Source of the DNA: Isoetes taiwanensis
Taxonomy: Eukaryota > Streptophyta > Lycopodiopsida > Isoetales > Isoetaceae
Assembly (NCBI GenBank): GCA_021234155.1
Contig: JAJEKV010000034.1
Coordinates: 6,244,028 to 6,308,027 of the forward strand
Direction: 5' to 3'
DNA length: 64,000 nucleotides
Positions 14,136 through 62,389 of this stretch are shown here, piece after piece. Under the pieces are notes generated by a model that ran no database searches, was not told the DNA's origin, and saw nothing but the letters and a program-made list of their open reading frames with translations. Each line of letters begins with the position of its first letter. Within the stretch, counting starts at the first letter, position 1. The translations under genes and the position numbers were made by a program.

Positions 14136-16272
14136 AGTTATGCACCAGTGGGGCTCCGAGAAGCTGTGAAAGCATAGAAGGTAATGGCCAAATAACGGTT
14201 CTTTATCATCACAAAAGTATGACATCTTTGGTTTTCATCTTCAATGACATGTAGCTGGCAACATGCATATGCTCTCGCCTCTTGTGGCAATTGCAGCTGA
14301 TCCCATCTAAATGTTTTAGTTCGTAGCTAGTGGGATCCTGTACGAATTAATGCAACATCTACAAGCTTCTTTTTGGACAAAGAAGCAAGTAAATAAGCTT
14401 GTGCTCCATGTGCCAAGCAGGATTTGCTGAAAGAGAGATGTTTTTGTGGCCTTGCGATATTCCATTTAATCAATGGCAATTTGATGTCTGCATATCAATC
14501 TTATGCACAACAATTTCACTCAACGCCATGGGGGGCAAAAGATTACTTCATATAAATGAGAAAGGAGTTGACATAGTGCTTTTGCTTGTAGCGACAACAC
14601 TCCACACAATGCTTAGAATCATGCTATATGGGATTTGCAGCTTGATTCCCATTCAATGTAAAATGATCTCTTTTGAAGTTTCTCTACCTTCTTCCTATCT
14701 AATGATATCCCATCCTCATGTCTTTTCCATGCCAAAGTCTCATGTTTATGCTTTTGCACACGCTTGTTGCATCTCATATAAAGCCCCACTTAACTACTTC
14801 ATTCCAATTAGAGCTTTTGTCTATAAGAAGCCCAACGTAGTTATACGTATTTGAGATCTCTACTTTCTTGCCCTTGCAATAGAATTCGCACCAAATATGA
14901 CACATTTACACGCATGCCTCTTGCATCACAAATCCAATACATCTAGATGACTTCGCATACAAGTTGCACTTCTCCACAATAAGCTGATATCATCTAGATT
15001 GCCGTCTCCTCCATTTTCTGCTATGGATCCATCATCTTGGATTCATGAACGCCAACAAGAAGAGCCAAATGCAAATATTCACACTACATAATTTTTGCCC
15101 GAAGGTTTGGAAAAATTGGTGTGTAAGATGTTGCGAACTAACCTTAAAAGGAATCTAAGGATGATTTATGACAACAGAACATAGGAAAGAAGAGGATACA
15201 TACAAATTAATGGTGCTCCAAGGCTACTTGTCAACAAAAGCATCTCGTATCTACCACCACTATTTCTGATTTCTTTAGCCTTGTCAACAAACGCATCTCG
15301 TATCTACCATCACTATTTCGGATTTCTTTTATCAATCTAAGATATTATGTCCTCTATCGACCCTCATCATGCTCTCTACCCAGCAAACAAAGCCACTTCA
15401 TGATCTGCTCTCCTGGTGTTTCCTCTTCCACACACTGAGAGCATTGCACATAGACAAGTCCAATCCTCTTGGCTTCCATCCTCTTGAAACATTAGCTAGC
15501 TTCATAATAATCTCATGCAATTTCAACACTTCTTCCTTCCCCTTATCAACTTATGCAGAAGACCTACTACATTACTATGCCATGTTAGTCTCTAGAAATT
15601 GCTAAGTTAAGATGGTCTCTAAAAGGAATTGGCTAATTGCTAAGTTGATTGAGCGTGCAAGACTGATACTAAAGGGAAAAGTTCTTGAATTGGAAGAGCC
15701 ACGTTGAAGAACTTCAAATATGTTGATTCATAAACTAGAGGCTTACAAAAAAACTCCACATTTAACTTGGCGTTCAAGATAAAGGTGCAGGTTCTTTTGC
15801 TTCCTTCACAAGAAAGTTCTGAGTCATGCAAAAAAACTTCATGTATCAAGCAATTGACGATTCTATAACACGGAAACACAAGAAATAAAAACATACATCA
15901 CTTACATTTATGCAGAACAAAAGAACAAAAACAATACGAAAGTTTTTGACAAGTCACTGAATTTGCTTTTGAAGCATTAGACACTTTGATGCAAGATCAC
16001 ATGACTGTACACAATTGTTGATGGCTGTGAATTAAAAGAAAAAAGAGGAAAGGCTCCCTTCCAAGATGGAATGCTATACATTTGAATTGTCTTTTCTCTT
16101 CACAATCTGGCAGATCTGCAGACATTGTTGAAGGATCTATACAAGCTTAAATGAATTTTTAATTAACTTTACTCCCTTCGTTGTTCATCTGAAGGTCATA
16201 AACACGTAATCAGCTCTCAACAAAAAATCGTAGGTAAGGGAACAACTTTTTCCCAAAGGTTTATTTACAGCC
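14136..16272. other. no recognised gene; one 53-bp tandem repeat
   Basis: Open frames reach about 150 codons (14,399-14,854) but lack recognisable motifs. A 53-bp tandem duplication with units starting TTGTCAACAAA lies at 15,228 and 15,281. I looked for a 5' LTR matching the LTR at 26,960-28,629 and did not see one here. Confidence 0.45.
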
Positions 16273-17175
16273 ATGGAAGAAGCAGATCTTGCGCGCTTCA
16301 TCAGCAAGTACGAAGCCAAGGAGCGCCGCCGGGAGCAGAGGACGAAGAGTCGGGAAGACGACCCGACCACAGCCAGCGAGCCAAAGAAGAGGAAGGCTAA
16401 AGCCATTAAGGCGGGCAAAAGAAAGGTTGTGAGGGTCGGTAAGCGAGGAACGGGGATCAACATCAACGAACCATCAGGCGAAGAGACCCCGCCTTCTACC
16501 GACGACTCGGACGAAGACTACGTGCCCGGCACAGAGGGAGCAAGTTCTTCAAAACCCCCGGTCGTGGAGGAAGAAGTCCCCCAGCAGGTAGAACAGGAGC
16601 AGGAGGAGGCCGGACAGGTGGTGAAGCCCCCACCTTTCCCGACGTGGGATAGGGTCAAAGCCCCATGGCCACAACGGGAGGCATATGTGATAGACCCTGT
16701 CAAGGTCTATCAGAAGAGGATCAAGGAGCACAACACCTACATGGAGAAGTGGGAGGCATACAATGCCTACTATCAGGAGCACCGGGTGAGGGCAGTCGAA
16801 GGTGGAGTACCCCCGAAGCAAACTCTGAAGCCACCCCCACCAAAGCCCAAGCCTCCCAGAGCACCAGGAAAGAAGCGGGCCGGCAGGAAGAAGCTGGAGA
16901 ACAGAGCCCTCAAGGAAATCCGGCACTTCCAGAGAAGCTACGGACTCTTGATCCCCCGGGCACCGTTTCAACGTTTGGTCCACGAAGTCATGCAGGAGTA
17001 CAACACGGACATGCGCGTGACTGATGAGATGATGTTGTGCTTACAGGAAGCAGCCGAAGCAAAAACAGTGCAGCATTTTGAGGATTCGACGGCCTGCACC
17101 GTGCACGCAAAGAGGGTCACCCTCATGAGGCAGGACATGCATCTTGCCAGACACATCAAGGGAGAACGCCCTTGA
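16273..17175 (+). CDS. histone H3-fold protein with long non-H3 N-terminus
   Basis: An intact 300-aa ORF whose start has a good plant context (GCCATGGA). Residues 211-300 are an unmistakable histone H3 fold: RALKEIRHFQ (alpha-N), LIPRAPFQRLVHEV (alpha-1), CLQEAAEAKTVQHFED (alpha-2), HAKRVTLMRQDMHLARHIKG (loop 2 and alpha-3), ending GERP where H3 ends GERA. Loop 1 has canonical H3 length, without the insertion common in CENH3. The 210-residue N-terminus is unlike any H3 tail: a basic NLS-like block (PKKRKAKAIKAGKRK, residues 38-52), an acidic Ser/Glu stretch (65-115), a Trp/Tyr-rich part (125-170), and a Pro/Lys linker (180-208). The ARTKQ and ARKS tail motifs are absent. The next ORF starts 713 bp downstream, and a chromovirus gag-pol follows on the same strand. 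A divergent host H3/CENH3-like gene is the alternative to a transposon gene. Confidence 0.85.
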   Translation: MEEADLARFISKYEAKERRREQRTKSREDDPTTASEPKKRKAKAIKAGKRKVVRVGKRGTGININEPSGEETPPSTDDSDEDYVPGTEGASSSKPPVVEEEVPQQVEQEQEEAGQVVKPPPFPTWDRVKAPWPQREAYVIDPVKVYQKRIKEHNTYMEKWEAYNAYYQEHRVRAVEGGVPPKQTLKPPPPKPKPPRAPGKKRAGRKKLENRALKEIRHFQRSYGLLIPRAPFQRLVHEVMQEYNTDMRVTDEMMLCLQEAAEAKTVQHFEDSTACTVHAKRVTLMRQDMHLARHIKGERP

Positions 17176-17321
17176 ACTCCTTGTAAATAATGAACATTTT
17201 TGTTAATATAAGGAATTTTTGTGTGAATAATGTGCCTATAATCTTGTTTAAATATGTTAAGAAACTGAATTCTAGCTTTTGTTTTGGTCAAATTGGAGTT
17301 TCTGAGCAAAATTGAGACGAT

Positions 17322-17388
17322 GTCTCACACGTCGCGCCAGGACAGAAAATGAGATTCTCATTTTCGGGCTGGGCGCAACGTGTGAGAC
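17322..17388. repeat. 67-bp palindrome, copy 1
   Basis: The outer arms GTCTCACACGT and ACGTGTGAGAC and the inner arms GAAAATGAGA and TCTCATTTTC make nearly the whole unit self-complementary. It would form a long hairpin in RNA or a cruciform in DNA. Confidence 0.85.
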
Positions 17389-17520
17389 CATGCCCAAAAA
17401 TGCCCAAAACCACTCCAAATCGACCAAATAAGGGGTCAATTCTGCCTAACTTGACGAGTTTAGTAGAATTACAGCCTTAGATTATCCAAATTGATTAAGT
17501 TTAGCCCAATTAGAACCCAT

Positions 17521-17587
17521 GTCTCACACGTCGCGCCAGGACAGAAAATGAACTTTTCATTATCGGTCTGGGCGCAACGTGTGAGAC
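17521..17587. repeat. 67-bp palindrome, copy 2
   Basis: Same orientation and outer arms as the copy 199 bp upstream. It differs at a few central positions: the inner GAAAATGAAC arm now pairs with a mismatch. Sequence between the copies is not repeated. Confidence 0.85.
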
Positions 17588-17888
17588 CTCGTACCATTGT
17601 CTTCACCAAATGATCTCCAAATTGTTGCAATAGGTTCATTAGTTGTCCTTAGCATGCTCAAACCCTAGGAATAGTCTTCAAACTCGCAATTGCACCCCTT
17701 AATAGATCAGAAGCACCTAATCTCAGTAAAATCTAGGCCATCCAAAAATTAGGGTTTCCCATTTTCTATAAATAAGTCCCCCATTTCTCATTTAGCACCC
17801 TGCAAGTTTGCTCTCCACTGCTTAGGCGATCTTCCCGCTCCCTGAGGCGCTTCTGCATCCGTTTGAGACTCTCTTCTTCGCTAGATCA

Positions 17889-19412
17889 ATGGCCACTGCT
17901 GACTTCGGGCGATGGTACAGCGCCAGTGCCCATGCTGCCGAGGCAGATGTCAACGACATCTTCCAAGTCTTTGGGAAAGAAATTGATATCCAAGCTACGC
18001 TAAATGCAACCCCAGCATATAGGCAAGTGCTAGCAGAGTTTCAAGCTAGGGTAGGACCCTCCCTTGTTCAGGTTCCCCCTTGTATAGGATATTTCGTTCC
18101 CCGCCCATCCCTTCAAGCAGCCTTGGGTGATGTTCCCAACATCGCCAAGTACTTAACCAACAAGGCGCAGAGGCTGCCTGACTACATGGTCCTGACAGCC
18201 AACAGGACCAAGTATTTCTCCTACACCGCCGCTCTAGCTATTTTCTTATCCCACCGCGCCGAAAACCCGATGGGGGCAACCTCTATCCCTCCGATGGAGG
18301 TGGACCCCATAGCAGTGCAAGAGGAAGAGCAGATGCTTTTGCAGTATCAGCAGGAACAAGAAGCAAGAGAAGAAGAAGAGGAGTCGGACGACGAGGAATA
18401 CACGGAGCTCGACTCAGACGAAGAACGGCACCAAGCGGAGCAGGAGCTGATCAACTTCGAGCAGAGCAGGCAGAACATCAGAGTTGCTCTCCCACTTGGG
18501 CTAGGCATCACAAGCCTAGCCCCTATCATCATCAACGGAGAGGAGTATCTACTCCTCAGCGACATCCAGAACCTTCCCGAATGCAGGGAGAGGGAGCTCA
18601 GACTGGATGAACTGCTCCACCAACTGCGGCAGACCGACATGGACGACTTCATCGTCCGGGGAGCCTCGGACTTCCCGCTTCAAGTGAGGGAAGCCGACAC
18701 CTACACAGGGGAAGCGACTTCCGATATCCAGGCCTACAGCAGCATCAGGCAAATGATGGACGAGCGGGAGCTGCCAACGGAGGAGGAGTTCCTCGCCCTC
18801 CAAGAACAGATGGGGATCCGTGGAAAGACCACGAGCATCCTAATGCCCAGGCCTTCGACACCACCCCCGGCAAGAGGAGCAGGAATCGACCTCAGGAGAG
18901 TCGACTCCACAATTGAAGACTACCGGGAGCTCACCGAGATAGAGGTCGACGAGTATGCAGGGCGACATAGAGCAGGAGGCCAAACAAACGGAGAAGCTTC
19001 GGCGACACACAACGACAGGTCGCTCAGGTACTACTTGCCGTTGTTGCTGGATGGAAGAGTAGCGGTAATACACCGCAAGTTCAGCCCCAGAGGTGAGGAA
19101 GGAGTGTTCATGCTGATTGCACTCTCAGGCTTCGGCAGGCATGCTCGAATAGCAGCAAACGTCGACTATGCCGTCCTAGTCAAGAGAGCAATGGCACTTG
19201 ACCTCTTCGACTTCGCCATACCCCACCGACGGCAGGCGAGATTGGCGGTGACTGCGGCCCTTACATCCGACCGCATAGTGGAAGAGCTGGCGAGAGCCTT
19301 GCAGGGCGGCTCGTCAGCAAGCGTCATCAGGAACTTGGGTCATTCGGTAGGAACGACCCAAGTTAAGAAGTTTCTTGAGGACAACCCGTCTTACCGGCGA
19401 TTTCAAGACTAA
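17889..19412 (+). CDS. unrecognised 507-aa protein with acidic segment
   Basis: An intact 507-aa ORF with a good start context (ATCAATGGCC) behind a TATA box. I do not recognise a family. Residues 1-125 look globular (VNDIFQVFGKEIDIQ, PCIGYFVPRPSLQ). Residues 144-185 are strongly acidic (EEEEESDDEEY, then LDSDEERHQAEQEL). Residues 190-330 are mixed helix-like with PLGLGITSLAPIIINGEEYL. Residues 330-380 are Pro/Arg-rich. The C-terminus (385-507) looks folded (RYYLPLLLDGRVAVIHRKF, LIALSGFGRHARIAANVDYA). No zinc fingers, membrane helices or signal peptide are seen. It lies between the H3-like ORF and gag; its stop is only about 165 bp before the first gag codons, with no LTR between. Acidic tracts occur in histone chaperones, but that link is only a guess. 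Confidence 0.75.
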   Translation: MATADFGRWYSASAHAAEADVNDIFQVFGKEIDIQATLNATPAYRQVLAEFQARVGPSLVQVPPCIGYFVPRPSLQAALGDVPNIAKYLTNKAQRLPDYMVLTANRTKYFSYTAALAIFLSHRAENPMGATSIPPMEVDPIAVQEEEQMLLQYQQEQEAREEEEESDDEEYTELDSDEERHQAEQELINFEQSRQNIRVALPLGLGITSLAPIIINGEEYLLLSDIQNLPECRERELRLDELLHQLRQTDMDDFIVRGASDFPLQVREADTYTGEATSDIQAYSSIRQMMDERELPTEEEFLALQEQMGIRGKTTSILMPRPSTPPPARGAGIDLRRVDSTIEDYRELTEIEVDEYAGRHRAGGQTNGEASATHNDRSLRYYLPLLLDGRVAVIHRKFSPRGEEGVFMLIALSGFGRHARIAANVDYAVLVKRAMALDLFDFAIPHRRQARLAVTAALTSDRIVEELARALQGGSSASVIRNLGHSVGTTQVKKFLEDNPSYRRFQD

Positions 19413-19590
19413 TTAGACTCTTGATCCCGGAGACTTTTTGTACTAAAATATTATATAAATGTGATTTCTGTTGCACTTTAAATGCCTTGCTAATATAATT
19501 TGTCCCACAACTATGTCAACAACCGCACGTAATGCAAATGAACAAGTAAAACTAACTATATAGCCACGAATTACTTGTGCATGCAGTTAG
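19413..19590 (+). other. ORF-to-gag spacer with splice-acceptor-like site
   Basis: AT-rich spacer after the 507-aa ORF with a possible polyadenylation region. It ends in ACTTGTGCATGCAG just before the gag frame opens, which resembles a plant 3' splice site. The gag frame has no strong ATG here and opens at a GTG near 19,577. Expression of gag by splicing is therefore possible but unproven. Confidence 0.35.
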
Positions 19591-20760
19591 AGGCCTAGGT
19601 GCGGGAGAACAACAACGCCTGGAGAGGGAGGAAATGAGTCCGCCGAGACCACGTCCGGCAAGGAACCTATTTGAAGAATTCGGACCCATGACCCCAGAGG
19701 AAGAAATATCCCAGATGAGGACGGACCTTGAGCAGATAAAGGCTTTGCTGGCCGCACAAGCAGGAGCGGCATCTGTGGGCAACGCTCAACTGCCACAAGC
19801 ATCAGCTCGGAAAACAGGAAGAGACAGGAAGAGGAGCAAGAGAGGGAGGTCCCCTAGTTCGGATTCCTCCGACTCAAGCTCAAATTCAGACTCCGACTCC
19901 GAGGAAGAAGAAGAGCAGGCCCAAGAACAAACAGATGGAAGGCAAAGGAACACTGCAGAGGGACGACAAAGAGACACAAGAACCTTTGACTACCAGAAGA
20001 AGGTAGATTCCGCATTGGGGAATGTTTGGAAGACCAGGAAACTCGAGCAATTCTCAGGCGAGAACAGGTCAGACATGGAGGCAGAGGCTTGGCTCGATGA
20101 GATGAGTGAATATGGCAACGCTTATGGGATGAAGGACAAGGATAAAGGAAGGGTAGCAACAGCCAACCTGAAGGGAGCAGCACGCATATCGTGGAAAGGG
20201 TATGCAAAGGCCCATGGCTTGAGCAGGGATGCTTGCAGGTTCAAGAAGTTTGCTAAAGCCTTCAAGCGCCACTAAGTCCCAAGAGAGCATAAGTCCAGCA
20301 TGATGCAGCAGTTCTATAGGCTCCAACAGGGAAACAAATCAGTCCAGAAATATACAGAGGAATTCATGAGGCTGAGGTTGTATGTGCCAAAGTTAGGAGA
20401 GAAGCATGCAGTAGAAAGCTACATTGAGGGCCTGAATGAGGAGATCCGCAAGCTCGTAAGGGCAATAAATCCTAAGACAGTATCAGAAGCAGAGTCCAAG
20501 GCAATAAGCTTGCAAGGAACGGGACCTCAGAATAGCGGGCAGAGGCAGCAGTATTATCAGGACAAAGGCAAGGCAACAAGGAGTTACAGCCCTAGAGCAG
20601 CTAGCCCGGGTCCAGCGAGAACCATGGTGGCAATCAGGGGAAGCAGCAGGAGAAAAAGCAGGTGTCCTTCAAGGACAAACAGGAGGGGTCAAACTACTCC
20701 AAAGCAGTGCGATCCTTCTTGCAGGCCATGCCCAAGGAAAAGAGACAGGAGTGCATAGAA
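19577..20760 (+). pseudogene. chromovirus gag, one frameshift
   Basis: The first frame (to 20,275) has a Ser/Asp/Glu-rich low-complexity tract (SSDSSDSSSNSDSDSEEEEE) followed by gag-like helices (KLEQFSGENRSDMEAEAWLDEM, LKGAARISWKGY). A stop at 20,273 and a frame change lead to 20,300-20,758 with QFYRLQQGNKSVQKYTEEFMRL and YIEGLNEEIRKLV, the conserved second half of Ty3 gag. Translation then shifts again into the frame that carries the zinc knuckle and pol. In the family gag forms the virus-like particle around the RNA. An original single gag-pol frame broken by two indels is the simplest reading. Confidence 0.8.
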
Positions 20761-23700
20761 AAGCAGCTTTGCTTCAGGTGCTTCCAGCCAGGCCATAGGA
20801 CAGCAAACTGCCCCTACGGCATGAGTGCAGCACTAGCGGAGTTGGGAGATTGGGACACTCTGTCTGACGACGACGGCGAGGAAGGCCGCGACTACATTCA
20901 GGGTGAGTGTCATATCTTTGCTGCAATAGATACAGAGCAAGCAGAGAGCCAGTATAAGGTAATTTCCACAGTAGGGAAGGCCAAGGCCAAGTCATTCATA
21001 GTCCTGATAGACTCGGGAAGTAGCCATAACTTTGCATCCCCCAGAATGGTTCAAATGTTGAAGTTGAAACCATTAAAGTCAAAGCCAAGGCCCGTTGTCT
21101 TCGCAAGTGGAGCAGTAAGGCAGACAGCAGGCAAGAGAATCAACTTCGACATCGACTTGCCAGGGATTAATATCCAGATGGGGGCAGAGGTAATGGGCAT
21201 TGGCAAATACGACTTGATCATAGGTATGGAGTACCTTGGACCAGCAGGGGCCATCATTGATTGTGGAAAGCGGAAGGTGACCTTCCCAACACCCGACGGC
21301 AAGATCATTGAGATCACAGGTAAAGAAGTTGTTCCCATCATGCAGTGTATGTCTTCTAAACGGCTGTTCAAGTGCATCAAGAGTGAGCGGGTGGCATACA
21401 TCTTCAAACTTGAGATTGAGGAGCCGGAGTCAGAAGAAAGTAAAGAAGACAAAGTGCTCAATAAGTTGCCCAAGCAGATAGCTAGTTTGATCACAAAGTT
21501 CCACGAGCTTTTCCCGGATGAGATCAAGCAGCTCCCTCCTTATAGGGGAGTTGAGTGCGAGATAGCACTCGAACCGGGAACAAAGCCGACAAGCAAGGCT
21601 CCATATAGAATGACAACGCAGGAGTTGTCGGAGCTAAAGAAGCAGTTGCAGGAGCTGCTCGACCTAGGTTTCATTAGACCTAGTGTCTCGCCATTTGGAG
21701 CGCCCATTCTCTTCGTTAAGAAGAAGGATGGTAGTTTAAGGATGTGCATAGACTATAGGCAGTTGAATAAGCACACCATTAAGAACAAGTATGCACTCCC
21801 AAGATCAGATGACTTGATGGATCAGCTTCAAGGAGCAAGAATCTTCTCCAAAATTGACTTAAGGTCAGGCTATCACCAGATCCGGATAAAGGAGGAAGAT
21901 ATCCATAAAACCGCCTTCAGGACACGGTATGGGCATTATGAGTTCACGGTGATGCCTTTCGGCTTATCAAATGCCCCTGCGACGTTCATGAGGCTCATGA
22001 ACGATATCTTCAGGGAGTTCCTAGACACCTTTGTGATTGTTTTCTTTGATGACATTTTGGTGTATAGCAGATCCCTCGAAGAGCATGCCCAACACTTGAG
22101 AAGAGTGCTGGAGAAATTGAAGAGGCACCAGTTGTACGCCAAGTTGTCGAAGTGCCACTTCGCCACGGAGAAGGTGGAATACCTTGGTCATGTGATCTCA
22201 GCAGAAGGCATTTCGACGGACCCCGCCAAGATTGAAGCAGTGATTCAGTGGCCGGCACCGAAGAATGTTCATGAAGTCAGGAGCTTTCTCGGTCTAGCAG
22301 GGTATTATAGGAAGTTCGTAAAGAACTTTGCTAAGATAGCGGCCCCGCTAACAGACCTGACGAGGGCAGAGAAGGTGAAAGATTGGGCAGAGCATTGGCA
22401 CAGGAAAGCCCAAAAGGGGTTTGAACTGTTGAAAGAAGCCCTGACGACAGCCCCTGTCCTGACCCTGCCGGACCCGGAGAAAGACAATAAGCTTGTAGCA
22501 ACAGATGCGAGTAAGATAGCTACAGGTGCGGTGCTTATGCAAGAAGAGCGTGTGGTAGCGTATGACTCCAGAAAGATGAACGACGCCGAAACGCGCTATC
22601 CCACGCATGATCAGGAATTGCTTGCGGTTGTCAGGGCATTAAGAATATGGAGGCACTACCTTTTGGGAAGGAAGTTCCAATTGGATACCGACCATCAGAG
22701 CCTCCAGTATGTATTCACGCAACCACACCTCAATCTGAGGCAGCGGAGGTGGATGGAGTTCCTCGAGGAATATGACTTTGAGATAGTCTACAAGCCGGGG
22801 AAACTCAATGTGGTAGCGGATGCGTTTTCAAGGCACCCCCTGACAACTAGAGTGCATTGCAATGCAATTTCGACGCTCTCCAGTGACTTTGGTAAGAAGA
22901 TTGAAGAGACCTTGCCAACGGATGTGGATTTCAGAGAAGTATGGGCAAGCCTCTCCAGGGAGGCTAGAACGGATAAGGAGCGGGAAGCCTTCAAGCATTA
23001 TAAGAAGGAAGGCAACCTGTTATATCACAAGAACAAGTTGTGCGTGCCCAAAGCATCAGGTGTAAGGAAATTGATCCTCCATGACACGCACAACAGCCCA
23101 ATAGCTGGCCATGTGGGATTCATGAAAACATATTTCAAGGTACGCAGCAGCTATTATTGGCCAGGAATGAAGAAGCAGGTAGCTCACTACATCAGGGAAT
23201 GTCAGCTATGCCAGCAGAGGAAGGCAGAGCAGCTTCGAATTCCAGGGGCATTAGAGCCATTAGCGGTGCCAAACGCTAAGTGGAAGGTAATCAACATGGA
23301 TTTTATCACAGGGCTCCCAAGGACAGTAAGAGGGAAGGATACCTTGATGGTAGTGGTCGACAAGTTGTCGAAGATGGCACATTTTGTGCCTTGCAGGACC
23401 ACAGATACAGCTATATGGATACAACAAAGCTCTTCACCAAAGAGATCTTCAGGCTTCATGGCATGCCAAGGAAGATTATATCCGATAGGGACCCGAAGTT
23501 CATGAGTGCATTTTGGCAAGACCTCTTCGCGACGATCCAGACCAAGCTATCCATGAGCACGGCATATCATCCTCAGACGGATGGCCAAACGGAGCGGACC
23601 AACAGGATTTTAGAAGACATGCTACGAAACTACGTCTGGAATAAGCAAGGTATGTGGGAAGAGTTTATTCACTTGGTGGAGTTTGCATACAATAGCACCA

Positions 23701-24395
23701 AGCAGGAATCATCCCAAATGTCGCCGTTTATGATTAATTACGGCTATCAGTGCCTAACTCCAGACACTTGGCACAATCCTGTGTCAAAAGTGGAAGTTTC
23801 GCAGCAGATGTTGGCCGATATGCAGCAGCTTGTGGAAGAAGTTCGAGGGTATCTGCTAGCAGCAAGAAGTCGACAAAAGAGCATCGCCGACAAGCATCGA
23901 ACAGTCAGAGAGTTCAAAGTTGGAGACGATGTTTGGCTCAAGATCAAAGTGAAGCAGGCGAAGCTCAGGATCGGAAATTGTAAGAAGCTTGCTCCAAGGT
24001 GGGCTGGACCTTTCAGAATAGTCGAGAGAGTAGGTAATCAAGCCTACAAGCTAGACTTGCCAGCACACCTAAAGATTCATAAGGTCTTCCACGTGAGTTT
24101 GTTGAAGAAACACACTCCAAACCCAGATGAAGTCTTGGACACTCCAACGTTGTTGGAAATGACGGAGGAGCAGCTGGAAATAGTTCCAGAATTGATTCTT
24201 GATAAAGCTTTCAAGAAAACGAGGAGATCAGAATTCCTCCAGTATTTGGTCAAGTGGAAGCACTTGCCAGTGGAAGATACGACATGGGTACTTAAGAAAG
24301 ATTTAGTAAAGCAGTACCCACAGTTTATGGAGCAATGGGACGGCAAGGTCATCTCCGAAGAAATCGGCTCAGGCATGTCGATTTGTGTAGATTAA
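20662..24395 (+). pseudogene. chromovirus (Ty3) pol with chromodomain, one frameshift
   Basis: The first frame (20,662-23,505) reads as follows: zinc knuckle [14 protein letters not shown] (residues 37-50), aspartic protease [10 protein letters not shown] (Asp117), RT with [19 protein letters not shown] and catalytic FFDD (461-464), RNase H with D615 (ATDAS), E652, D676 (TDH) and D720, then the integrase zinc-binding part ([16 protein letters not shown]) and the first catalytic Asp (NMDFITGLP). A frameshift near 23,410 moves the rest to the frame ending at 24,395: SDRDPKF (second Asp), GQTERTNR (catalytic Glu), then LPAHLKIHKVFHVSLLKKH and a chromodomain-like end (FLQYLVKWKHLPVEDTTWV). Chromodomains steer such integrases to modified H3 in heterochromatin. 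All active-site residues are present, so only the frame breaks disable it. Confidence 0.93.
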
Positions 24396-25216: not shown

Positions 25217-26926
25217 CCCACGATCTTGGTTCGGGAAATTCCCCGGAATAAGCACAAGCTACCGTATAAAATGCAAAAAAGTCGTGTTACCAAAAAGTTC
25301 GTCGGATCCACTCCCGAGAAAAAAATTACCTTTTTAGGAAAAGAGACGTGGGACATTTTAAGAGGCGGAAATTTGACAATGCCTAATTTTCTTTATCGGA
25401 TCCTTTAATTCCGCTTTTAGGTTTTGCCTAAGATTTTTTACGGTTTATTTTTGTTCATACTTACAGAGGACGGCGTTAATAGGGCGGCCAGCTACTGCTC
25501 CTCCGTCCAAGATTAGCTCATTACCTCTGCTTCTCCCTCTGTTTTCTTATTTTTCCATCACGGTGGGCGGCTTACAGATGCAGGAGAAGGGAGGAGGAAG
25601 CAAGGATTGAAGGTGCGAGAAGATGCAGGTGGTGATCTTTGAAGGCTAGAATATGTATGCAGTGTGGTCTACCACTGCCATTGGTTTCTAGAATTTGCGC
25701 TGCTGCTAAAGGGGAGGCCAGGTCTATTTTTTTACTCTCTTATGCCCAGATAAATTCGATGCAATGGCTTCCAGCATTACAGAAGGTGCCTCCGATTTTA
25801 TTGTATCTTATATTGGTTTAATCTGTTTACTAATGCAGTGAGAGGAACCGATTGATTTTGCAAGGGAAATCTCAAGTTCTAATGTGAGGTCAGCAACTCA
25901 TGTTCTTCTAGGAATGCCATGTTTTGGATCTGCTGCAAAAGCTCGACCAGAAATGTTTATTGGTTTTTCTTTTATTGTTTGCTTCTATTTCAAGGTGTAC
26001 CCATGTTTATTGCAGGTGATAGGAGCAGCGGTTTTGCAAAAGAAATCTCAAGTTCTAACAAGAGGAGGTGAGCAACTCATCTTCTTATAGGTCATGCCAT
26101 TGCTTGATGCCTTATTCTGGTTTGGACCCTCTTTAAAAGCTGGACCAGAAATGTTATTGGTATTTCTTCCATTGTTTTTTTCTCTATTTTGCTACATTTT
26201 ATATTAGTGTATCCATGTCTACTGCAGGTGATAGAACAGATCGATTTTGCAAGGGAAATCTCAAGAATTACTAAGAGAAGGTGAGCAACTCATGTTAGTT
26301 TAGTCCTGCCATTTGCTTCAGAATATAAATGCTATGTTCTTCTTTATAAAAGCTTTGTTTTACAATCTGACCATATTTTGAACTTGTGATATTTTCTTGA
26401 ATGGATTTCTAGATATAATTAGATGCCGGTTGTTCCTTTATTGGATGCCTGCTGTTGTTGCAAGATATATACTTATTAATATATGCTATCTATTTTCTTT
26501 AGGTAAATCCAATGGCACCTTGAAAAAAGACATCACATTTTGGAGCTCGAAAAGACAAGAACCAAACATCTATTCTAGAAATGGCTGTATTCCAGCATGA
26601 GGTCGAAGTTACGCAGGACCCATTTGCAGCAACTGTTTTGCTATTAGAGATAAACATGTTTCTCTTATTTCTTGGGGGCATTAATATGTATACTTTACAT
26701 TGAATATATATTCTGATGTGTGGATCTGATTTTAAGTATCAAGTTTGCTTGTTGGTTTATAATTTGTAAGAAACTGTAGGCAAGATTTTAAATTGTAGGA
26801 AATTAGCTTGTTGGTTTTAAAATAAAAGGAAATTGTAGGCAAGAATTAAGGATTAACAGGTTGCTCTACAAAGTACAGGAAATTTTCCTTTAGTAGTCCA
26901 AAAATTTCCCGAACCAAGCCCACGAT
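25217..26926. mobile_element. hAT-like DNA transposon, 1.69 kb, 8-bp TSD
   Basis: The inverted termini CTTGGTTCGGGAAATT (25,225-25,240) and AATTTCCCGAACCAAG (26,903-26,918) are perfect over 16 bp. They are flanked on both sides by the direct repeat CCCACGAT (25,217-25,224 and 26,919-26,926). An 8-bp duplication is typical of hAT elements. No transposase domain (BED finger, RNase-H-like core or dimerisation region) is recognisable, so it is probably non-autonomous. The interior holds three tandem exon-like units at about 25.83-26.29 kb. It sits between two copies of a purine block in the 3' non-coding part of the chromovirus, so it is younger than that element. Confidence 0.75.
25834..26295 (+). 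repeat. three tandem exon-like units (177 and 212 bp spacing)
   Basis: TGCAG at 25,834, 26,011 and 26,223 is followed each time by a similar 45-55 bp segment (GATTTTGCAAGGGAAATCTC in units 1 and 3). Each segment ends at an AG-GT(G/C)AGCAACTCAT donor-like site, then an intron-like stretch with GACCAGAAATGT and a pyrimidine-rich end. This is the pattern of a duplicated exon with its intron. Confidence 0.6.
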
Positions 26927-26947
26927 GCTGCGGACAGCATCATTTCA

Positions 26948-26959
26948 AGGTGGGGAGAA
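26948..26959 (+). promoter_or_regulatory. polypurine tract of the LTR element
   Basis: AAGGTGGGGAGA lies immediately before the LTR start at 26,960, the expected place for plus-strand priming. An identical block lies at 25,205-25,216, before the hAT-like insertion; without the insertion the two would be about 40 bp apart. Confidence 0.65.
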
Positions 26960-28629
26960 TGTGACGTTCCAGGACAGTATATGGTCCCAGGATGTATACT
27001 GTACTGCCTCGTCACGCGTACACGCCACCCCGACTGACGTGTACGCCAACGTGTAGCTAAGTTAGTAGCCCTAGGGGGCAACGTGCAAGGAGTGTGTATT
27101 TATTAATGTGCACATTAAACAATGTGCACATTCACTTAGGTGCACATTTTCCCATATGGCCACTTCATGCCAAGTGGGCCACACCCATAGGTGCAATTAA
27201 TGTGCACATTTTCCAATGTGCACATTCATAAATGTGCACACATTTCCATGTGGGCACATTTGGCCACCTAGCCCTTAAAGGCAAGTGGGCCCATTTCCAA
27301 TTATCCCACATGCCAAAAGGGGATAATTGGAAACCCTAGCTAACCCCCTTGTCTATTTAGGGTGAGAAAACCTAACCTGGCCATTTTTCGTTTCTAGGGT
27401 TTTAGAACTCTGTTTTGGCTGCCTCAACATCCAAAACCACCTCCCAGACGCCGTCTGAGAGAATTGCTTCATTAGTTTCTTTGATTCGAGCATCTCAGCA
27501 AGATGGTCGAGCTCAGGTCAGGAGGAGGAACTCAAGGATCAAGTATTTAGGCAATTTGATAGTCTAAACCCCATTTCAGTCATAGAATCAATAGGTTTAG
27601 CCTCTTAAATTGCCCATAGTAGCCCTCTAGATCTCTAGATAGCAGATTCTAACTAAAGAACCTAACTCTATGATGTAGATTAGATCTAGTTCTTTAGTTC
27701 TCTGTGAAGTATATGGATGATGTATCTCTATGAACTCCTTGTATTGGGAAGGGGGGTAGAGACCTAAAGCTTTGTAGTTGATGCTCCTAGAGTAGCCTCT
27801 CTAGCACCCTGTAGATTCGGCCTGTGCACAAGAGCCACACCTGGTTGTGGGTGAAGGGGCCAGACTGGCTAAGAAGGGGGTTCGTGTTCTGACTCTTGAA
27901 CGATCCCTATGGTGTGTTAGTGCTGCCGGGGATCATTGTGACTAGGTCTAATGGCTTGCCACTGCGTGTGGGCAAGGCATGGGCTCGACACTCGTGAGGT
28001 GGTAGATATGACCTTCCATTGAGTTCAAGTCGAATACGGGCGGTGGCCCTCTAGTCACCTTGAGTCAGCATGTAGATCTCTGGAGGGAGTGATCCCTACA
28101 TGCCCCATCGGAACTGGGGAGATGAAACCCAGGAATAGCCCTCTTGGCTATGCATCCGTGGGCTGATCAGTCCCAACACTATTCAGCCTACTCGCAAAGT
28201 GTGCACGGGAGGGGCGGATGGAGTGGACAACCCTAAGCCATGTTCTTATGCCGACCAAATCCATTGCCATGAATTGCATGCGCCCCTTGAACTCACGGAG
28301 ACCCAAGCCGTCAGTCATCCCTTTGAGTCTGAGCCTTGGGTAGGATTTCCCCTATGCATTGTACTGATCATTGTCTTTTGCAGATGTGACGTGCCACCCA
28401 GAGGGTGGATATATGTGTTGCTCTTATATACTGACATGTATGTTTACGCTTCCGCAGCTAGGTAGGCCCTGAGGGAGACGGGGTACAATGACCCCTTTAC
28501 TCTTCCCACTGGAACCCGTCACGGTTGCAGTGTCATGTGGAGGGCCCTGTATCGGCATGGAGCTGGTATGGGGGAAGAACTCCTGTTTGTATACGGTGAG
28601 TGCGCCGTATGCGAGTAGGGGACGTCACA
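26960..28629 (+). repeat. 3' LTR, 1,670 bp (TGTGACG...CGTCACA)
   Basis: It begins TGTGACG directly after a polypurine tract and ends CGTCACA, giving the TG...CA ends and short inverted termini of an LTR. A TATA-like and promoter-like zone with several AATGTGCACATT palindromes lies in the first 300 bp (U3). The right flank is L1 sequence. No second copy of this LTR is present in the window, so the 5' LTR of the chromovirus block is missing, diverged beyond recognition or further upstream. Assignment to the 16-25 kb element rests on position and strand. Confidence 0.7.
27105..27245. repeat. cluster of AATGTGCACATT palindromes in the LTR
   Basis: Five or six full or partial copies of the 12-bp palindrome AATGTGCACATT occur within about 140 bp of the presumed U3. 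The spacing is uneven. They could be dimeric transcription-factor sites or simple repeat growth. Confidence 0.7.
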
Positions 28630-34073: not shown

Positions 34074-35842
34074 TCATTCCCCCTTCATGTGATATTCCCT
34101 GTCATCACATTGTAATAATTTCCTTATTTCCTGGAATCTGGATAATGGTAGTGCCTTTGGAAGAATATCTGCTCTTTGATCAGCTGTACTAATATAGGTC
34201 AAATGCACTTGATTTTTCCTTACCATATCTCTGATGAAATGAACTTCCATCTCAATGTGTTTTGATCTTTCGTGCAAAATTGGATTTTTTGACATGGCAA
34301 TACAACTAGTATTATCACAATAAATGATTGTTGGTCCTCTTTGAGCAAATCCAAATTCTGCCATAAGTCTTCTCTCCCAAATTAGTTCCTTTGTCAACAG
34401 GGCTGCTGAGTTGTAACTCAGCTTCAGCACTAGATAAAGCAATGCTGCTTTGCTTCTTGCACTTCCAAGCAACTGGGGCTCCACCTAAGAGAATGACATA
34501 TCCTGAAGTTGACTTTCGTTTGTCTAAATCTCCTCCCCAATCACCATCACAATATGCCTGCAATTGCAAGTTGGTTTCATTAAATACTATACCAAAATGC
34601 ATTGTACCTTTCAAGTATTTGAGAATCCTTTTTGCTGCATTCCAGTGTTCTTTACCAGCCTTGTTATTGTACCTACTGAGAATATTAACTGCAAATGCAA
34701 TGTCAGGCCTAGTACACTTTGCTACATAGGACAAACAACCAATCAAACTCCTGTAAGGTATTTTCTCCATTTGTTTACTTTCAGTTTCAGTCTTTGGACT
34801 CATATCTGCAGAGATTCTGTGACCAGGGACCATAGGAGTATATGCCATATTGCAATCTTCCATATGAAATTTCTTCAACATATTTTGAATATGCCCAATA
34901 TCTTGTGATTTCTGTCCCTGTAAACATCTATGCCCAGAAACCTCTTTAATTCTCCAAGATCACTCATTTGGAATCGTTTCTTTAAGATATCTTTGCAATG
35001 ATTTAGTACTTGGGTTCCCTTTGATATCATAATATTGTCATCAACATATAAAGCAATAATGCACCAGTCACTTCCCATTTTGAACCTATAGATATTACCA
35101 TCATAATTGAGCTTCTCAAAACCTTGTTCTAAAAGATATCCATCTATACATTTATACCATTCCCTAGGGGATTGTTTAAGACCATAGACTGCTCTATTCA
35201 ACTTCCAGATTTTTCCTTTTTCTTCTTCAAATCCAGGTGCAGGTCTTAAATAAATTTCCTCCTCTAATTTAGCATTCAAGAATGTTGTACTTACATCCAT
35301 ATGATGGATTTCAAGGTCACAAGCATTAGCAATAGCTAATAACATTCTCAAACTATTTATTTTTACCAATGGTGAGAATGTTTCATCAAAATCTTCCCCT
35401 TTTTCTGAGTAAAGCCCTGTGCAACAAGTCTGGCTTTAAATTTCTTTGTATTTTTGTCTACTCCTGGTTTTATTCGATAGATCCACTTGCTTCCAACTAT
35501 ATTCTTATCAGAAGGAATATCTACCACTGTATAAGTGTTTGTTCTTTTGAATGCTCTCATTTCTTCTTCCATAGCACATTTCCAGTTCTTTCCATTCATA
35601 TCTTGAACTGCCTCCATATAATTTTGTGAATCTTGTCTCTTTCAAGTATCAAAATGTCGAATACAGTATTCATTTCTCCTACCTGAGATACTTTTTCCAA
35701 ATTCAGTTCTACCATGAGACTCTAAATTATGTTTGGCTTCTTCTGCCAACATTTGAGCTTCTGTTCGTTTGGGTTTTCTTTTTGGTCTATCAATTTTACC
35801 AAATTTTGTCTCTTGGTGTTCAATCTCTTGCTCAGCACCTGA
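34074..35842 (-). pseudogene. Ty1/copia RT-RNase H, frameshifted
   Basis: On the minus strand, from 35,842 down: linker with IDRPKRKPKRTEAQ, RT start MNGKNWKCAMEEEM and IVGSKWIYRIKPG, a frameshift near 35,365, then DVSTTFLNAKLEEEIYLRPA, AVYGLKQSPREWY and the catalytic YVDD (35,040-35,060). Another shift near 34,880 leads to RPDIAFAVNILSRY and the RNase H start CDGDWGGDLDKRKSTSGY. A shift near 34,400 leads to the RNase H end, ELIWERRLM, YCDNTSCIAMSKNP and HIEMEVHFIRDMV, stopping at 34,074. All are copia hallmarks. The upstream part of the linker continues at 38,311-38,450 beyond a Ty3 LTR inserted into it. Confidence 0.9.
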
Positions 35843-38315
35843 TGCTGCCATGCTATGGCAGCATGTAAGAGCCAAGCACATATTTGCACTAATCCTATCA
35901 GTTTGATTCAATTTGCAAGACATTAGGGGAATGCTTCACTAGCATACATTCAAGTTTGAAGAGCAAAGGAAGGACAATTGACTCAAGTCACTCAAGAGAT
36001 ACAAGAGGTCAAACAAGCAAAGGAAGTGTAGAGAAGAAGAGAAAGAAGACCCCTTGAAGAGCATTCCATGGTATGTAACCATTTGTGAGCTTGGCATCTT
36101 TGGCATTTTTTGATTTCCATCCCCATCCACTCCACCATCCCAGATAGCATTGAACCTTGGCTCCTTCCTCATACACCTCCCAAAGTCAAACTTGACCTTG
36201 AAAGTTCTTTCTAGTCAAAATACACCTTCATGAAACACCCACTTGCTTCATCATCCACTAGTTCAAGAGAGACTTGACTTAGTCATAACTTTGCTTATAT
36301 AGTCAACATCCCATGCAACTTGAGCAAAATGTAGAGAGGCTTGCAAAATCCCTAAGGGAAATGCTCAAAATTCAAATATGCCCAAGGAGATGCCTCAAAG
36401 ATGCTCCACAAAATTTTTGGCTTCCTAATGAGCACTAGATATGCCAAGTCCCTCTACACCCTACTTCACACATCAAGACATCATACCCATCACCATTATA
36501 TCCATTTCATCTCAAACTCTCATTCAAATCAAAATTCATTTCAAAGCATCATTGTTGCCACATCACCTTTGACACCTCATCATTCACACACATCATCTCC
36601 ACATCATTCTAAAATTTTGACTAGAGAGAATTTTCAAATTCAAGTGGGCTGACACGTCATCATTCCCATTGGCCACGTCATACCACCTAGCCTTGTCATC
36701 ACTTTCAAATGCCACTTCATCCACTCCCTAAACTTTTTTTCCAAATTCCAAAGAGCTCTATTGTGAAAAAAGATCGAGAATATTATAGGGCACAAAAAAA
36801 GATTCACCTAAAAAAAAGAATTTTGAGAAAAGGCCTTATTTTAGGCATTGTATATGTTTTCTAGGGAATCGTGCCATAGGGTTTAAGGGGTGCAAAAAAA
36901 TTTCCTATCTACCCCCAGCCTAATTTCTCTTTCAAGCCAATCCCCCCCTGTCGCGTGGAGTATCCGGGCGTGTGGGGCGGTGGAGGTACCGAATCCCACG
37001 TGGACACTGCACGCAATAATCAGAAGAAATTGATTTTTTAAGCCTTATATACGTGGGATATTTCTCTTCGAACTGCCAAAAACCTAAACCTGGAAAATGC
37101 CAAGATCCGTTCAAGCCGACCTAACAAACCATTAATTCACCACCTAAACTGGCCGAATCATCATGTTTAATGCCATGAATGCTTAGTGCGAGCTAAAAGA
37201 CAGAAGATTGGAAGGAAATGATGAAGATTTCAACGGAACAGAACATTCTACAGAAGGGGATTTTTCGCACAGAAGATGTTCGAGGGCTTGAAGGCAAAGA
37301 AGAACTATTTGGCTTTGAAGAAGGACCGGCTTGACAATCTTGAGCTTGATCCTGACCTCCTATGTTTACCTTTGATCCGGATTATTGACTCAATTCTCTG
37401 GACTTTTATGTGTACCTATTTGATCCTGTGCCCAAGACCCCGAGCTTGGGATGTTACATTGTATCTTCTGAGTGACTGATTAAATTGAAAATCCGACCTT
37501 TGCAGCAATTTGTTTGAGTTGCTTTGTGATCTTTTCCCAAAAAAGCAAAAATTGTTATAGGTTGAGTATCTAGTGCCTGTACACACTGTTGGCTGTGTGT
37601 TGTCTGCCTATGTTACAAATCCTTAGAAAGTGTAAGAGCCAAATCCCTGCATTGCAATGTCAATAAAAGCTGGCATTGTCAGAACATGAGGTATTGCACA
37701 ACAAGCGTGGAGCACAGGAGAGCCACTGTTAGAACTTCAATCCTGTCAAACAAAATGTGTGGAAGTAGGCAGTACTAGATACACGCACAGTTGACCCTTA
37801 GAAAACATTATCTTTCAAGATCATTTTCTTCTTACAGTCTTAGGCTAAGAATTATCAAAAGAAAAAATTAGGTCCCTTCTTGTCAAAAAGAAAAGTTGGC
37901 CCCTGGTGTGCAGACAAATCTGAGAGAAATAGAGTTGGTAGTTCCAGAAAATTCATCACCAATATCGAGTTTCAAATTTCAGCTCTCTGTTAGGGATATT
38001 GACCAAAAATTGACTGGGTCAGTGATCTGAATCTTGCCCATCTAGCCTACTCTGACCTCGCTGAGTTTTTGCAGTCTGTTAGTGTCAAGTGTTGAGCACA
38101 TTGAAGAGTGATATCCACACCCATAGCTTCATAGATCACATTCTCGCAAGTGATTTTTGTGAAGCGGCACTATTTTGTCTTGAGGGAAACACACTCCTAG
38201 TGATCTTTTGTGATTTTTTCTGGAATCTTTGCACTTAGAGTGGTTGCCTCAAGCAACCTGGAGGTTCTAAACCACTGAGGTTGGAGGTTTTGCCAGGAAC
38301 ACCTTCAACACCTGA
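35838..38315 (+). mobile_element. solo-like Ty3 LTR (LTR-1) with CCTGA duplication
   Basis: LTR of 2,468 bp from TGCTGCCATG (35,843) to CCTTCAACA (38,310), flanked on both sides by CCTGA (35,838-35,842 and 38,311-38,315). The copia frame resumes after the duplication, proving insertion into copia. The first 21 bp are palindromic (TGCTGCCAT...ATGGCAGCA). It is nearly identical to the LTRs at 42,073 and 51,751 but lacks about 27 bp near 37,050 that they share. No internal element sequence follows it directly, so it behaves as a solo LTR. Confidence 0.85.
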
Positions 38316-38450
38316 TTCCACTTCTGGCTCAACAACATTACTTGGAATCATTTTTGACTCATTATCAGAGTCACTCAAATCTGCCTGCTCCAATCCTTGA
38401 GTTTTTTCTTCTTCACTTATTGACTGATTTGCTTCTTCAATACTATCTTT
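38311..38450 (-). pseudogene. copia linker fragment beyond the LTR
   Basis: The minus-strand reading is acidic (EEANQSISEEEKTQGLEQ, then DLSDSDNESKM) and continues in frame to the copia linker on the other side of LTR-1 when the LTR and one CCTGA are discounted. It ends abruptly at 38,450 against chromovirus sequence. A second copy of this same junction is at 54,385. Confidence 0.75.
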
Positions 38451-40004
38451 GTTCCTTGAGGCTGCATGGAATGCACAGGTCGATCATCACCAATAGAGAT
38501 CCGAAGTTCTTTAGCGACGTTTAGCAAGACTTCTTCAACACGAGCTGCACCAACTTGTTGATGAGTTTTGCTTATCTTTTGCAGTCAAATCGGCAAAGGG
38601 ACCGCACCAACACAATTTTGGAGAGCACATTGAGAAACTATGATTGGAACAAGTAATCCAAATGGACCGAGTACATCCACCTAGCCAATTAGGTACAAAA
38701 ATATGAAGCAAGAGGCATCGAAGATGTCTCCCCCATGATCAACTACAGTTATCAATGCTAGACCCTAGTCATGTGGCATAATCTAGAGCCCAAGGTGGAA
38801 GTTTCTCAACAACGACAAAGGCATTTATCGCGGTAGCTTTTGGTAGAAGTGTGAGAGTATCTTCAAAAGCATGGGCATATCCGAAAAAGCCTAGCGGATA
38901 GACATAAAACTCCTCGAGAGTTGTTTTGTTGTGAGAGATAAAGTTTGGCTCAAGTAAAGGTTTAGCAAAGGAAGCCAGATCGGCAATCAGAAGAAGCTAA
39001 GCCCTAGATGGGCCGGTCCGTTCAAGATCTTGGAGAAGAGTGGGCTCTCGGGGCCTACAAGTTGGACCCTCGGCCCACCTTAAGGTCTTCCATGTGAGTT
39101 TATTCAAAAGGCACGATCCTAACCTTCATGAGGTTTTGGATATTCCAACTTTGTTGGAAATGATGGAGGAACAAGTTGAAATTGTGCCTGAATTACATCT
39201 TGATAAGTCATTCAAGAAGACTAGGTGATCTTAATTCCTCCAGTATTTGGTCAAGTGGAAGCACTTGCCCGTGGAAGACGCGACATGGGTATTGAAGCAG
39301 GATTTGGAGAAGCAATACCCAGAGTTCAGGAAGGAGTTTGATGGGCGACTCGTCTCCGATTCGATCGACGCCGACTTGCCAGGAGGTTAGCTTAGTATGT
39401 TTCTTAGTTAGCCTTAAGTTCTGGCTCATGTATTCTAGTTAGTAGAGTGCATGTGCCAGGATCTTGGAACGTGTGCGCGATGATGGGATACGCCTTTAAG
39501 GCATTCTCTAGGCCAACACGCACCAAGAGGTGCGCATGACCATTAGGGTCATGTGAGTGAGGAATGAGGCATGGTGGCCGATGATGGGACATCGATCGGA
39601 TGCTCTCTATGCCGCGATGCGGGGTACGCACACCTGGCCGTAGGAGGGTCATGGTGAAGGTTAAAGTGATCATGTGCGATGATGGGATCGTGAGACGTTC
39701 CCTAGCTTAAAACCCTTGGGGCATGATGCACTGGGGTGTACTCGATCTGGGGGATCGTTTACAAGATAGCACTTGATCATGGGTGATGATAGGATCATCT
39801 TAAATGGTCCTTAAGCTCAAATCCTTATGGGGCCATGATCGGGTGCAAGGTGGTAGGGTAACCTTGAGCTGGTAGTTCGGCTCAAGGAGGTAGGTAAGGG
39901 GGGTGGTCCCCTAAAACCACAAACTTATTAACTTATATAACGTAATGTGCTACTTGTGCAGGCCAGTGAAGGAAAGCATGAAGGAGGGAGCACGTTACGA
40001 GAAG
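38451..40004 (+). pseudogene. chromovirus integrase/chromodomain remnant, block R1
   Basis: It starts within the integrase core (LHGMHRSIITNRDPKFFSDV), continues with decayed pieces (NRQRDRTNTILESTLRNY), then SAHLKVFHVSLFKRH-like and a chromodomain-like segment (FLQYLVKWKHLPVEDATWVL) interrupted by stops (for example at 39,228). It is related to the chromovirus at 19.6-24.4 kb but clearly diverged. After the stop at about 39,390 comes non-coding sequence with CGATGATGGGA motifs about every 100 bp. The right end (GTTACGAGAAG, 40,004) joins directly to a gag fragment. Nearly identical blocks are at 54,386-55,935 and 62,916 onward. Confidence 0.85.
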
Positions 40005-51089: not shown

Positions 51090-51750
51090 AATCTCTGTGG
51101 TAAGATGTAGCTAGGTTTAGTTAGTACATAGGGTTAAAGCTAGATCAATTAAGCCTGTCTTAGTAAGTGTAGTTCTGCTTTAGAGTTGTTATTTGTGTAC
51201 TAATGAGTTTATAAGTGTTGCTATGCAGATTGTGATCAACTGAGGGAGTGAATTAATACTGATGATCATAGTTCCATACAGGTGCACCTGAGCATGTCTT
51301 TTACACATCTCTTCCACTGCACTACATTAATCTTCATCATCTGGAGTTGCTGTCATTGCCTCCACACCAGCAACTCATTCAAACTAACAAGCTTTATCTT
51401 CACATGCAGGTGCATTCCTATGTTTATCTCCATCTGTCATCTGATCAAGAGTTGACCTCATTGCATCAGAAAACCCCCCTACATTGTCAATAAATTTCCC
51501 AAGCTGCTGTCATACCACCATCCTGCAGCTTCTCAGAACTAAAGAGATTTATTTTCCATGCAGGTTCATCTGAAAGTAACATCATATGCACGTTCATAAT
51601 GCCAAATCTATCACTTTCCAATCCATATGCAGGTCATTGAGTTGCCAACCATATTCTCATATTGGCAACTGGCTGGAGATATGTCAAGAGTTATCAAACA
51701 GCTAGTCAAAAGGGGCTGGAAGACCAGCCTTCTCTTTTAGTTTGGCATAA
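51090..51750 (+). other. Tat-like element 3' non-coding region
   Basis: No coding frame. Repeated CATGCAGGT(G/T)CA-type motifs (51,240-51,640) are present. A purine-rich AAAAGGGGCTGGAAGA lies at about 51,710, 30 bp before LTR-3. This is the only polypurine tract candidate, though not immediately adjacent to the LTR. Confidence 0.5.
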
Positions 51751-54245: not shown

Positions 54246-54385
54246 CCTGATTCCACTTCTGGCTCAACAACATTACTTGGAATCATTTTTGACTCATTAT
54301 CAGAGTCACTCAAATCTGCCTGCTCCAATCCTTGAGTTTTTTCTTCTTCACTTATTGACTGATTTGCTTCTTCAATACTATCTTT
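54246..54385 (-). pseudogene. second copy of the copia linker fragment
   Basis: Essentially identical to 38,311-38,450, including the CCTGA start and the abrupt junction to chromovirus sequence. It shows that LTR plus flank was duplicated, or assembled twice. Confidence 0.8.
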
Positions 54386-60831: not shown

Positions 60832-60872
60832 TCTAATATAATAGAAACCAAGCCCAGCATTGCTGAGCTTTA
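60832..60872 (+). repeat. Helitron 5'-end-like sequence
   Basis: TCTAATATAATAGAAACCAA followed by the imperfect hairpin GCCCAGCATTGCTGAGC. Plant Helitrons start with TC and a similar AT-rich string. It directly precedes the pyrimidine tract. Confidence 0.35.
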
Positions 60873-60885
60873 AGAGGTTTTTGTG

Positions 60886-62355: not shown

Positions 62356-62389
62356 AGAGATCAAAACATGACCAATCACGATGGTAGGA

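Follow-up and report, generated by a model that had tools for sequence, protein, structure and literature searches.

A Ty3/gypsy chromovirus lineage in Isoetes taiwanensis carries a conserved histone H3 gene

Here we describe a Ty3/gypsy chromovirus from the genome of Isoetes taiwanensis that carries a gene for histone H3, the fold and N-terminal tail of which are under purifying selection. The gene was found as an open reading frame in a 64,000-nt stretch of genomic DNA (hereafter the window) and was then read in other copies of the same element. Carriage of the gene by the element and selection on it we regard as close to certain. Our preferred reading, to which we give a probability of about 0.6, is that a chromovirus lineage captured a host H3 gene, probably a CENH3-like one, and kept it as a working gene, whose product would be a nucleosomal H3 that shapes chromatin on the element itself or on its targets. 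The nucleosomal mechanism, taken by itself, stands at about even odds.

The H3 gene and the element that carries it

The H3 gene of the window (16273..17175, + strand) is an intact frame of 300 codons, in which residues 211-300 form a full H3 fold with a loop 1 of canonical length and a C-terminal GERP, just as the first-pass annotation had read it. The Pfam Histone profile (PF00125) matches residues 187-296 (E 1.6e-26), histone H3.3 is the top PDB sequence match (2e-28), and the copy at locus L013 matches the same profile at 1.8e-28. The fold is thus of H3 type; the annotation had staked its reading on the domain scoring against histone profiles, and it does. Residues 1-212 have no relative at E 0.001 among 692 candidates scored from ~5.8 billion proteins. 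The AlphaFold model of the H3 is of poor confidence in the fold region, with pLDDT block means of 46-65 and a broken alpha2. No match to the H3 was found among viral contigs and phages, nor any to the downstream frame ORF2 among viral contigs, genome contigs and plasmids, which leaves a phage, plasmid or viral source unsupported.

The chromovirus that the annotation had placed next to the gene lies downstream of it on the same strand, with gag-pol at 19.6-24.4 kb (Pfam). It comprises a stop-interrupted gag region (19556..20755, +; Ty3_capsid/Retrotrans_gag) and a pol region (20605..24395, +) encoding protease, RT, RNase H, integrase, an SH3-like domain and a chromodomain, with a frame change inside the integrase. 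The domain order is that of a chromovirus (Gag, PR, RT, RNase H, IN, C-terminal chromodomain), as assigned by Pfam in the window and by tblastn in other copies. Further downstream, sequence reading identified a nested DNA transposon of ~1.7 kb (25225..26918) with 16-bp terminal inverted repeats and the 8-bp target duplication CCCACGAT. It is followed by the polypurine tract AAGGTGGGGAGAA (26947..26959, +), which is also present in other copies, and by a 3′ LTR of about 1.67 kb (TGTGACGTTCC...GGGGACGTCACA; 26960..28629, +). Codon usage of the H3 gene correlates with that of ORF2 at r 0.83, with that of pol at 0.77 and with that of a neighbouring gypsy element at only 0.25.

Two other features of the window were recorded. 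Another gypsy element (35842-40005 and 51750-55936) has apparent LTRs of ~4.2 kb that are 97.7% identical and contain a fragment of a degenerate chromovirus integrase; a third piece (62916-64000) is cut off by the end of the window. At 60860-62400, a long pyrimidine-rich tract holds several overlapping F/S/P-rich frames and is almost certainly non-coding.

Self-comparison of the window revealed no LTR pair flanking the H3 frame, and carriage is therefore undecidable from the window alone. We searched the genome (1,658,258,908 bases, or 1.66 Gb, in 1110 contigs) with the H3 protein and found at least 131 copies of the gene, the window's own among them, on 68 contigs and at most eight on any one. 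The other 130 matching rows are 75-96% identical to the window H3; counted by eye, 35 of the 131 rows contain stops and 96 contain none. ORF2 lies downstream of H3 at all eight loci read first, the window included. In blastn comparisons with seven other loci, similarity begins only at 16271-16277, with unrelated flank upstream of this junction, so the window copy is 5′-truncated and its first methionine is internal. Measured against a 413-aa copy, about 113 codons are missing together with the leader and the 5′ LTR, and the 300 codons present are what remains of about 413-439.

Ten other copies were read over 10 kb or more, seven of which had also entered the junction comparison. In all ten the H3 gene lies inside a Ty3/gypsy chromovirus, in the order LTR, H3, ORF2, gag (nine of ten), pol, and sequence matching the 3′ LTR of the window starts 2.5-2.75 kb upstream of the point at which the window H3 frame begins. 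Whether multiple copies always precede the same gag-pol was a check proposed in the first-pass annotation, and ORF2 and pol do follow H3 in 10 of 10. ORF2 is partial in L022 and 37-65% identical in L016; by tblastn, pol of L016 was found only in the adjacent stretch, and gag was detected in nine copies, L022 being the exception. A second LTR was located, again in an adjacent stretch, for seven copies (aligned lengths 1.31-1.75 kb in the six pairs measured), and L016, L017 and L022 have no simple LTR pair within the sequence read around them.

The LTRs start with TGTGACGTTCC and end with GACGTCACA, or nearly so, and thus have TG...CA termini. Six of the seven pairs are bounded by 5-bp target duplications (GTATC, AAACC, ACAAC, ACTAG, ATGTA and GATGC); in the seventh, L018, the alignment ended before the LTR end, so the duplication is not resolved. 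One base past the 5′ LTR, all six copies whose end was read have the primer-binding site TGGTATCAGAGC, which we take to be that of plant initiator tRNA-Met, and the polypurine tract precedes the 3′ LTR in six of six. With at least 131 copies, an LTR upstream in every copy read at length, and target duplications, primer-binding site and polypurine tract wherever both ends were read, the retrotransposon-carried H3 that the annotation had put forward is established. LTR-LTR distances (K2P) of 0.012-0.062 in six copies would correspond to roughly 0.4-2.4 million years, given an assumed plant substitution rate of 1.3e-8 per site per year. A further H3 copy (L032, 4988-5887), 76% identical and with an interrupted frame, lies beside L016, the two H3-bearing elements being ~11 kb apart on the same contig.

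A CTATAAATA box lies 123 nt 5′ of the ORF2 start (17766..17774, +). This box occurs exactly twice in each of the ten 10-kb stretches, once ~120 nt before ORF2 and once before H3, at ~110 nt in those copies whose H3 start was read, a recurrence that suggests two internal (TATA) promoters per element. The spacer between H3 and ORF2 also contains two near-palindromic hairpins of ~80 nt each (17309..17588, +; z -8.5 for folding against shuffles), and arms of the same hairpin pair are present upstream of H3 in nine of the ten copies (L013-L015 and L017-L022, not L016). In these nine, the near-palindromes (GTCTCACACGT...ACGTGTGAGAC) together with the TATA box make up a module that precedes both H3 and ORF2. 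The spacer had at one point been considered as an LTR, a reading dropped once the real LTR was located.

ORF2 itself (17889..19412, +; 507 aa) belongs to no known family, searches against Pfam, NCBIfam, PHROGs and PDB having returned nothing usable. Its one relative, P0122, is 46% identical over 501 aa and is encoded on a 2007-nt contig; the identity blocks are clustered to a degree reached by 0 of 5000 shuffles. The structural model of ORF2 has a mean pLDDT of 36, and its pN/pS across three intact copies, one of which is the window's, is 0.134.

The full-length protein and the constraint on it

The start of H3 was read in 31 copies: ten in the long stretches, one in L032 and 20 in short stretches. 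Of these, 18 have a frame that begins MAR[TD]K and encodes 413-439 aa, a proportion that is not a genome-wide rate, because all 20 short-stretch copies were picked from rows without stops; the other 13 have no MAR[TD]K start in an open frame. The 18 full-length proteins are up to 26% apart in sequence. Their tail is exactly MARTKQTARK in 16 cases, and MARTKQTTRK and MARDKTVSRK in the remaining two. All 18 have R2, K4, R8 and K9, and none has the usual S10, which is replaced by P in 17 and by T in one. The first-pass annotation had described the protein as having no H3 tail; this holds for the truncated window copy and fails for the family. Between tail and fold lies an insert of 314-340 aa, which is variable and charged and has NLS-like basic stretches; as seen in the window copy, it comprises basic, acidic, proline-rich and Trp/Tyr-rich stretches. 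At 413-439 aa, the protein thus departs from canonical H3 (~135 aa in total), in which tail and fold are contiguous.

Pooled over the 18 full-length copies, pN/pS is 0.116 in the tail, 0.359 and 0.218 in the two parts of the insert, and 0.059 in the fold, with pS at ~0.39. A set of 17 copies was used for codon bootstraps and for the tree described below; L038 was left out, as its frame runs beyond the usual end, and L016 was retained, although its insert looks frame-shifted over part of its length. In this set the fold gives 0.057 (0.031-0.093) and the tail, of 10 codons, 0.123 (0.055-0.187), the two ranges overlapping. Pieces of pol give 0.204 (six copies, window included, pieces below 80% identity excluded). 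The dN/dS analysis across copies that the annotation had called for, run here as pN/pS, thus places both fold and tail below pol. The choice of intact copies favours lower pN/pS, a bias that does not account for the lower value of the fold relative to the insert. We conclude that fold and tail are under purifying selection and that, as far as pN/pS goes, constraint is stronger on the H3 fold than on the enzymes that the element itself encodes. In a neutral-decay simulation based on the window copy alone, the fold taken by itself gave a weak result (P 0.125) and the whole ORF gave 0 of 2000; the pN/pS comparison supersedes this simulation. A chance ORF or pseudogene is rejected by residue conservation and by the pN/pS results.

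Within the fold, the window copy retains C110, H113, R116, D123, L126 and I130, which presumably form the H3-H3′ interface, and R69, R83, K115 and T118, which we take to be DNA contacts. Judged against ten reference H3 and CENH3 sequences, it keeps 22 of 29 invariant positions as against 26 of 60 variable ones (p 0.0035). The seven invariant residues lost are T58, A88, A91, L100, L109, K122 and R129, and R63, R72 and F84 are lost as well; in other copies R72 is kept and L100 is replaced by I. Private substitutions concentrate in residues 75-112, spanning loop 1 and alpha2, where 16 of 23 are found and 9.8 would be expected (P 0.003, a post hoc value, since the stretch was chosen after the substitutions had been seen). 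This region guides deposition in CENP-A, and by analogy a changed choice of chaperone is plausible for the element H3.

The origin of the fold was addressed by shared residues and by an H3/CENH3 phylogeny. Twelve fold positions are common to one or more plant CENH3s and differ from canonical H3, and five are shared with canonical H3 only; R63P, L65A, Q85T, S87E and V89L are shared with all three of the plant CENH3s compared. The tree included 17 element copies, these three CENH3s and ten of 118 folds from the long H3-like proteins discussed below (of 120, two fell short of 85 aa). The element folds grouped with plant CENH3 at UFboot 90, a value that falls to 66 with one element sequence, and AU tests did not reject grouping with canonical H3 (p 0.46) or with the long H3-like proteins (p 0.38), the one-sequence test giving the same outcome. 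CENH3s are recognised by a longer loop 1 and by the absence of Q68, F84 and T107, numbered from Met (PMC7598501); the element H3 has a canonical loop 1 and keeps Q68, though F84 and T107 are changed. The element fold may descend from a plant CENH3.

Explanations for an element-borne histone

If the H3 is nucleosomal, as we prefer, it would be made from the element's own internal promoter, enter the nucleus, pair with H4 and be built into nucleosomes on element DNA or at insertion sites. Its long insert and changed loop 1-alpha2 face would there modify silencing or integration, with K4 and K9 still open to host enzymes. The strong constraint on the fold favours nucleosome assembly; the constraint on tail and fold together is also compatible with a decoy function. 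As we weigh these candidate roles, support falls from a nucleosomal H3, through an integrase tether, to a decoy.

In the tether explanation, the element H3 would mark nucleosomes that the integrase chromodomain recognises, and insertions would be steered to them. A chromodomain was found in nine of the 11 pieces searched (eight of the ten fetched 3′ pieces, and the window; none in L031 or L032), and all nine keep the cage W and have I and L at the first and third aromatic positions. By these residues the domain is of group II type, the pattern of which is loss of Y24 and Y48 with W45 kept, and the 2012 paper that describes this pattern reports the partner of plant group II chromodomains as not found (PMC3350952). 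Steering is harder to reconcile with the spread of at least 131 copies across 68 contigs, at most eight to a contig, and we consider a tether possible but rather unlikely.

A decoy, or histone mimic, would need no nucleosome assembly: a free H3 tail on a long linker would titrate host writers and readers of K4 and K9, and new copies would escape silencing. The tail pN/pS of 0.12 and the presence of K4 and K9 in 18 of 18 copies agree with this, as does the P found at the S10 position in 17 of 18 (T in one). However, a pure tail decoy needs no fold, and the fold has a lower pN/pS than the tail (0.057 against 0.123, with overlapping ranges); we therefore hold the decoy, too, to be a minority explanation.

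More tentatively, the element may carry both halves of a private chromatin signal: its H3, of centromeric ancestry and with the K4/K9 tail intact, would be one, and its integrase, with the group II chromodomain, the other. The element would then pack its own DNA, or mark its landing sites, with nucleosomes that only its own machinery treats differently, and would amount to a retroelement with its own histone code, an idea that we offer as speculation.

That the H3 is a passenger, captured and then copied along without use, is very improbable. Plant LTR elements have been described as capturing host genes (PMC7264820), an open frame with a MAR[TD]K start is missing from 13 of the 31 copies read and stops occur in 35 of the 131 rows, yet the fold is held at a pN/pS of 0.057, below the 0.20 of pol, at a pS of ~0.39, and the tail is kept beyond a variable insert. 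The annotation's other option, a host H3 or CENH3 gene merely lying beside a chromovirus, could appeal to the absence of a 5′ LTR of the window copy within the window and to the five substitutions shared with the three plant CENH3s. For the window ORF it is rejected, with next to no residual probability, by the number of copies (131 or more), by the LTR upstream of all ten read at length and by the target duplications outside the LTRs.

Comparison with known systems

LTR retrotransposons are silenced via H3 modifications, and chromoviruses are thought to choose their sites via chromodomains. With an H3 of its own, encoded and conserved, a chromovirus brings a histone into the silencing conflict on the side of the parasite. 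The element H3 is also a candidate ligand for plant group II chromodomains, and the family lends itself, as a natural experiment, to asking which of its parts, tail or fold, count when an H3 serves an element and not the cell. An LTR retrotransposon carrying its own conserved histone H3 was not found described among the matches listed from the open literature searched, nor was any LTR element encoding a histone; fungal hAT elements with an H3 gene are already known.

The fungal cases are hAT DNA transposons with H3-like genes in Pyrenophora tritici-repentis (H3L; PMC3538342) and Pseudocercospora fijiensis (PMC6710886), which are, as here, mobile elements with an H3 gene. The H3L of P. tritici-repentis has insertions in the N-terminal tail, matches neither H3 nor CenH3 completely and is accompanied by reported ESTs (PMC3538342). 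Whereas those elements are DNA transposons with TIRs and a hAT transposase, the Isoetes element is an LTR retrotransposon with LTRs and gag-pol. The amplified H3 copies of P. fijiensis are reported as all inactivated by RIP (PMC6710886), whereas tail and fold are under purifying selection here; and those of P. tritici-repentis, described as recent, hardly differ from one another (PMC3538342), in contrast to the divergence among our full-length copies.

Captured genes in plant LTR elements have been reviewed (PMC7264820). A Ty3/gypsy element of Phalaenopsis likewise carries a captured host gene as an extra ORF, which is ALKBH5-like and has activity in vitro, but this ORF encodes an m6A demethylase and not a histone (PMC9289625). 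The extra domains named in the main text of a survey of 121 angiosperm genomes include no histone (PMC9289625).

Plant CENH3 shares with the element H3 the five substitutions listed above and, in two of the three sequences compared, the terminal RP. By contrast with plant CENH3, the element H3 has a loop 1 of canonical length, Q68 and an insert of 314-340 aa, and is multicopy and mobile.

Long H3-like proteins also occur on 'ena' contigs (P0002-P0121; 120 listed of 437 matches). They are at least 165 aa long and were picked by shared words, so that their fold likeness to the query is partly due to selection. Among the 120 listed, 39 start with MA.TKQT and have a long insert before the H3 fold, as here; 59 of the 120 are at least 350 aa long. 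Their folds, with a median identity of 81%, are much nearer to canonical H3 than is that of the element H3, and hhalign detected no relation between their inserts and the element insert. N-terminal homology to these proteins was not upheld: one local match reached 0.002 with composition correction off, and phmmer gave none below 0.1. The number and diversity of the long H3-like proteins suggest another multicopy, perhaps mobile, long-H3 family. Four genome-contig matches of P0040 look like ordinary H3 genes.

Non-seed-plant chromoviruses have been treated elsewhere (PMC2864245). With the group II plant chromoviruses (PMC3350952), the element described here has in common the gag-pol order and a C-terminal chromodomain that has lost Y24 and Y48 but not W45. 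Unlike them, it has two extra ORFs, H3 and ORF2, between the primer-binding site and gag, each with an internal TATA box and, in nine of the ten copies, the hairpin pair.
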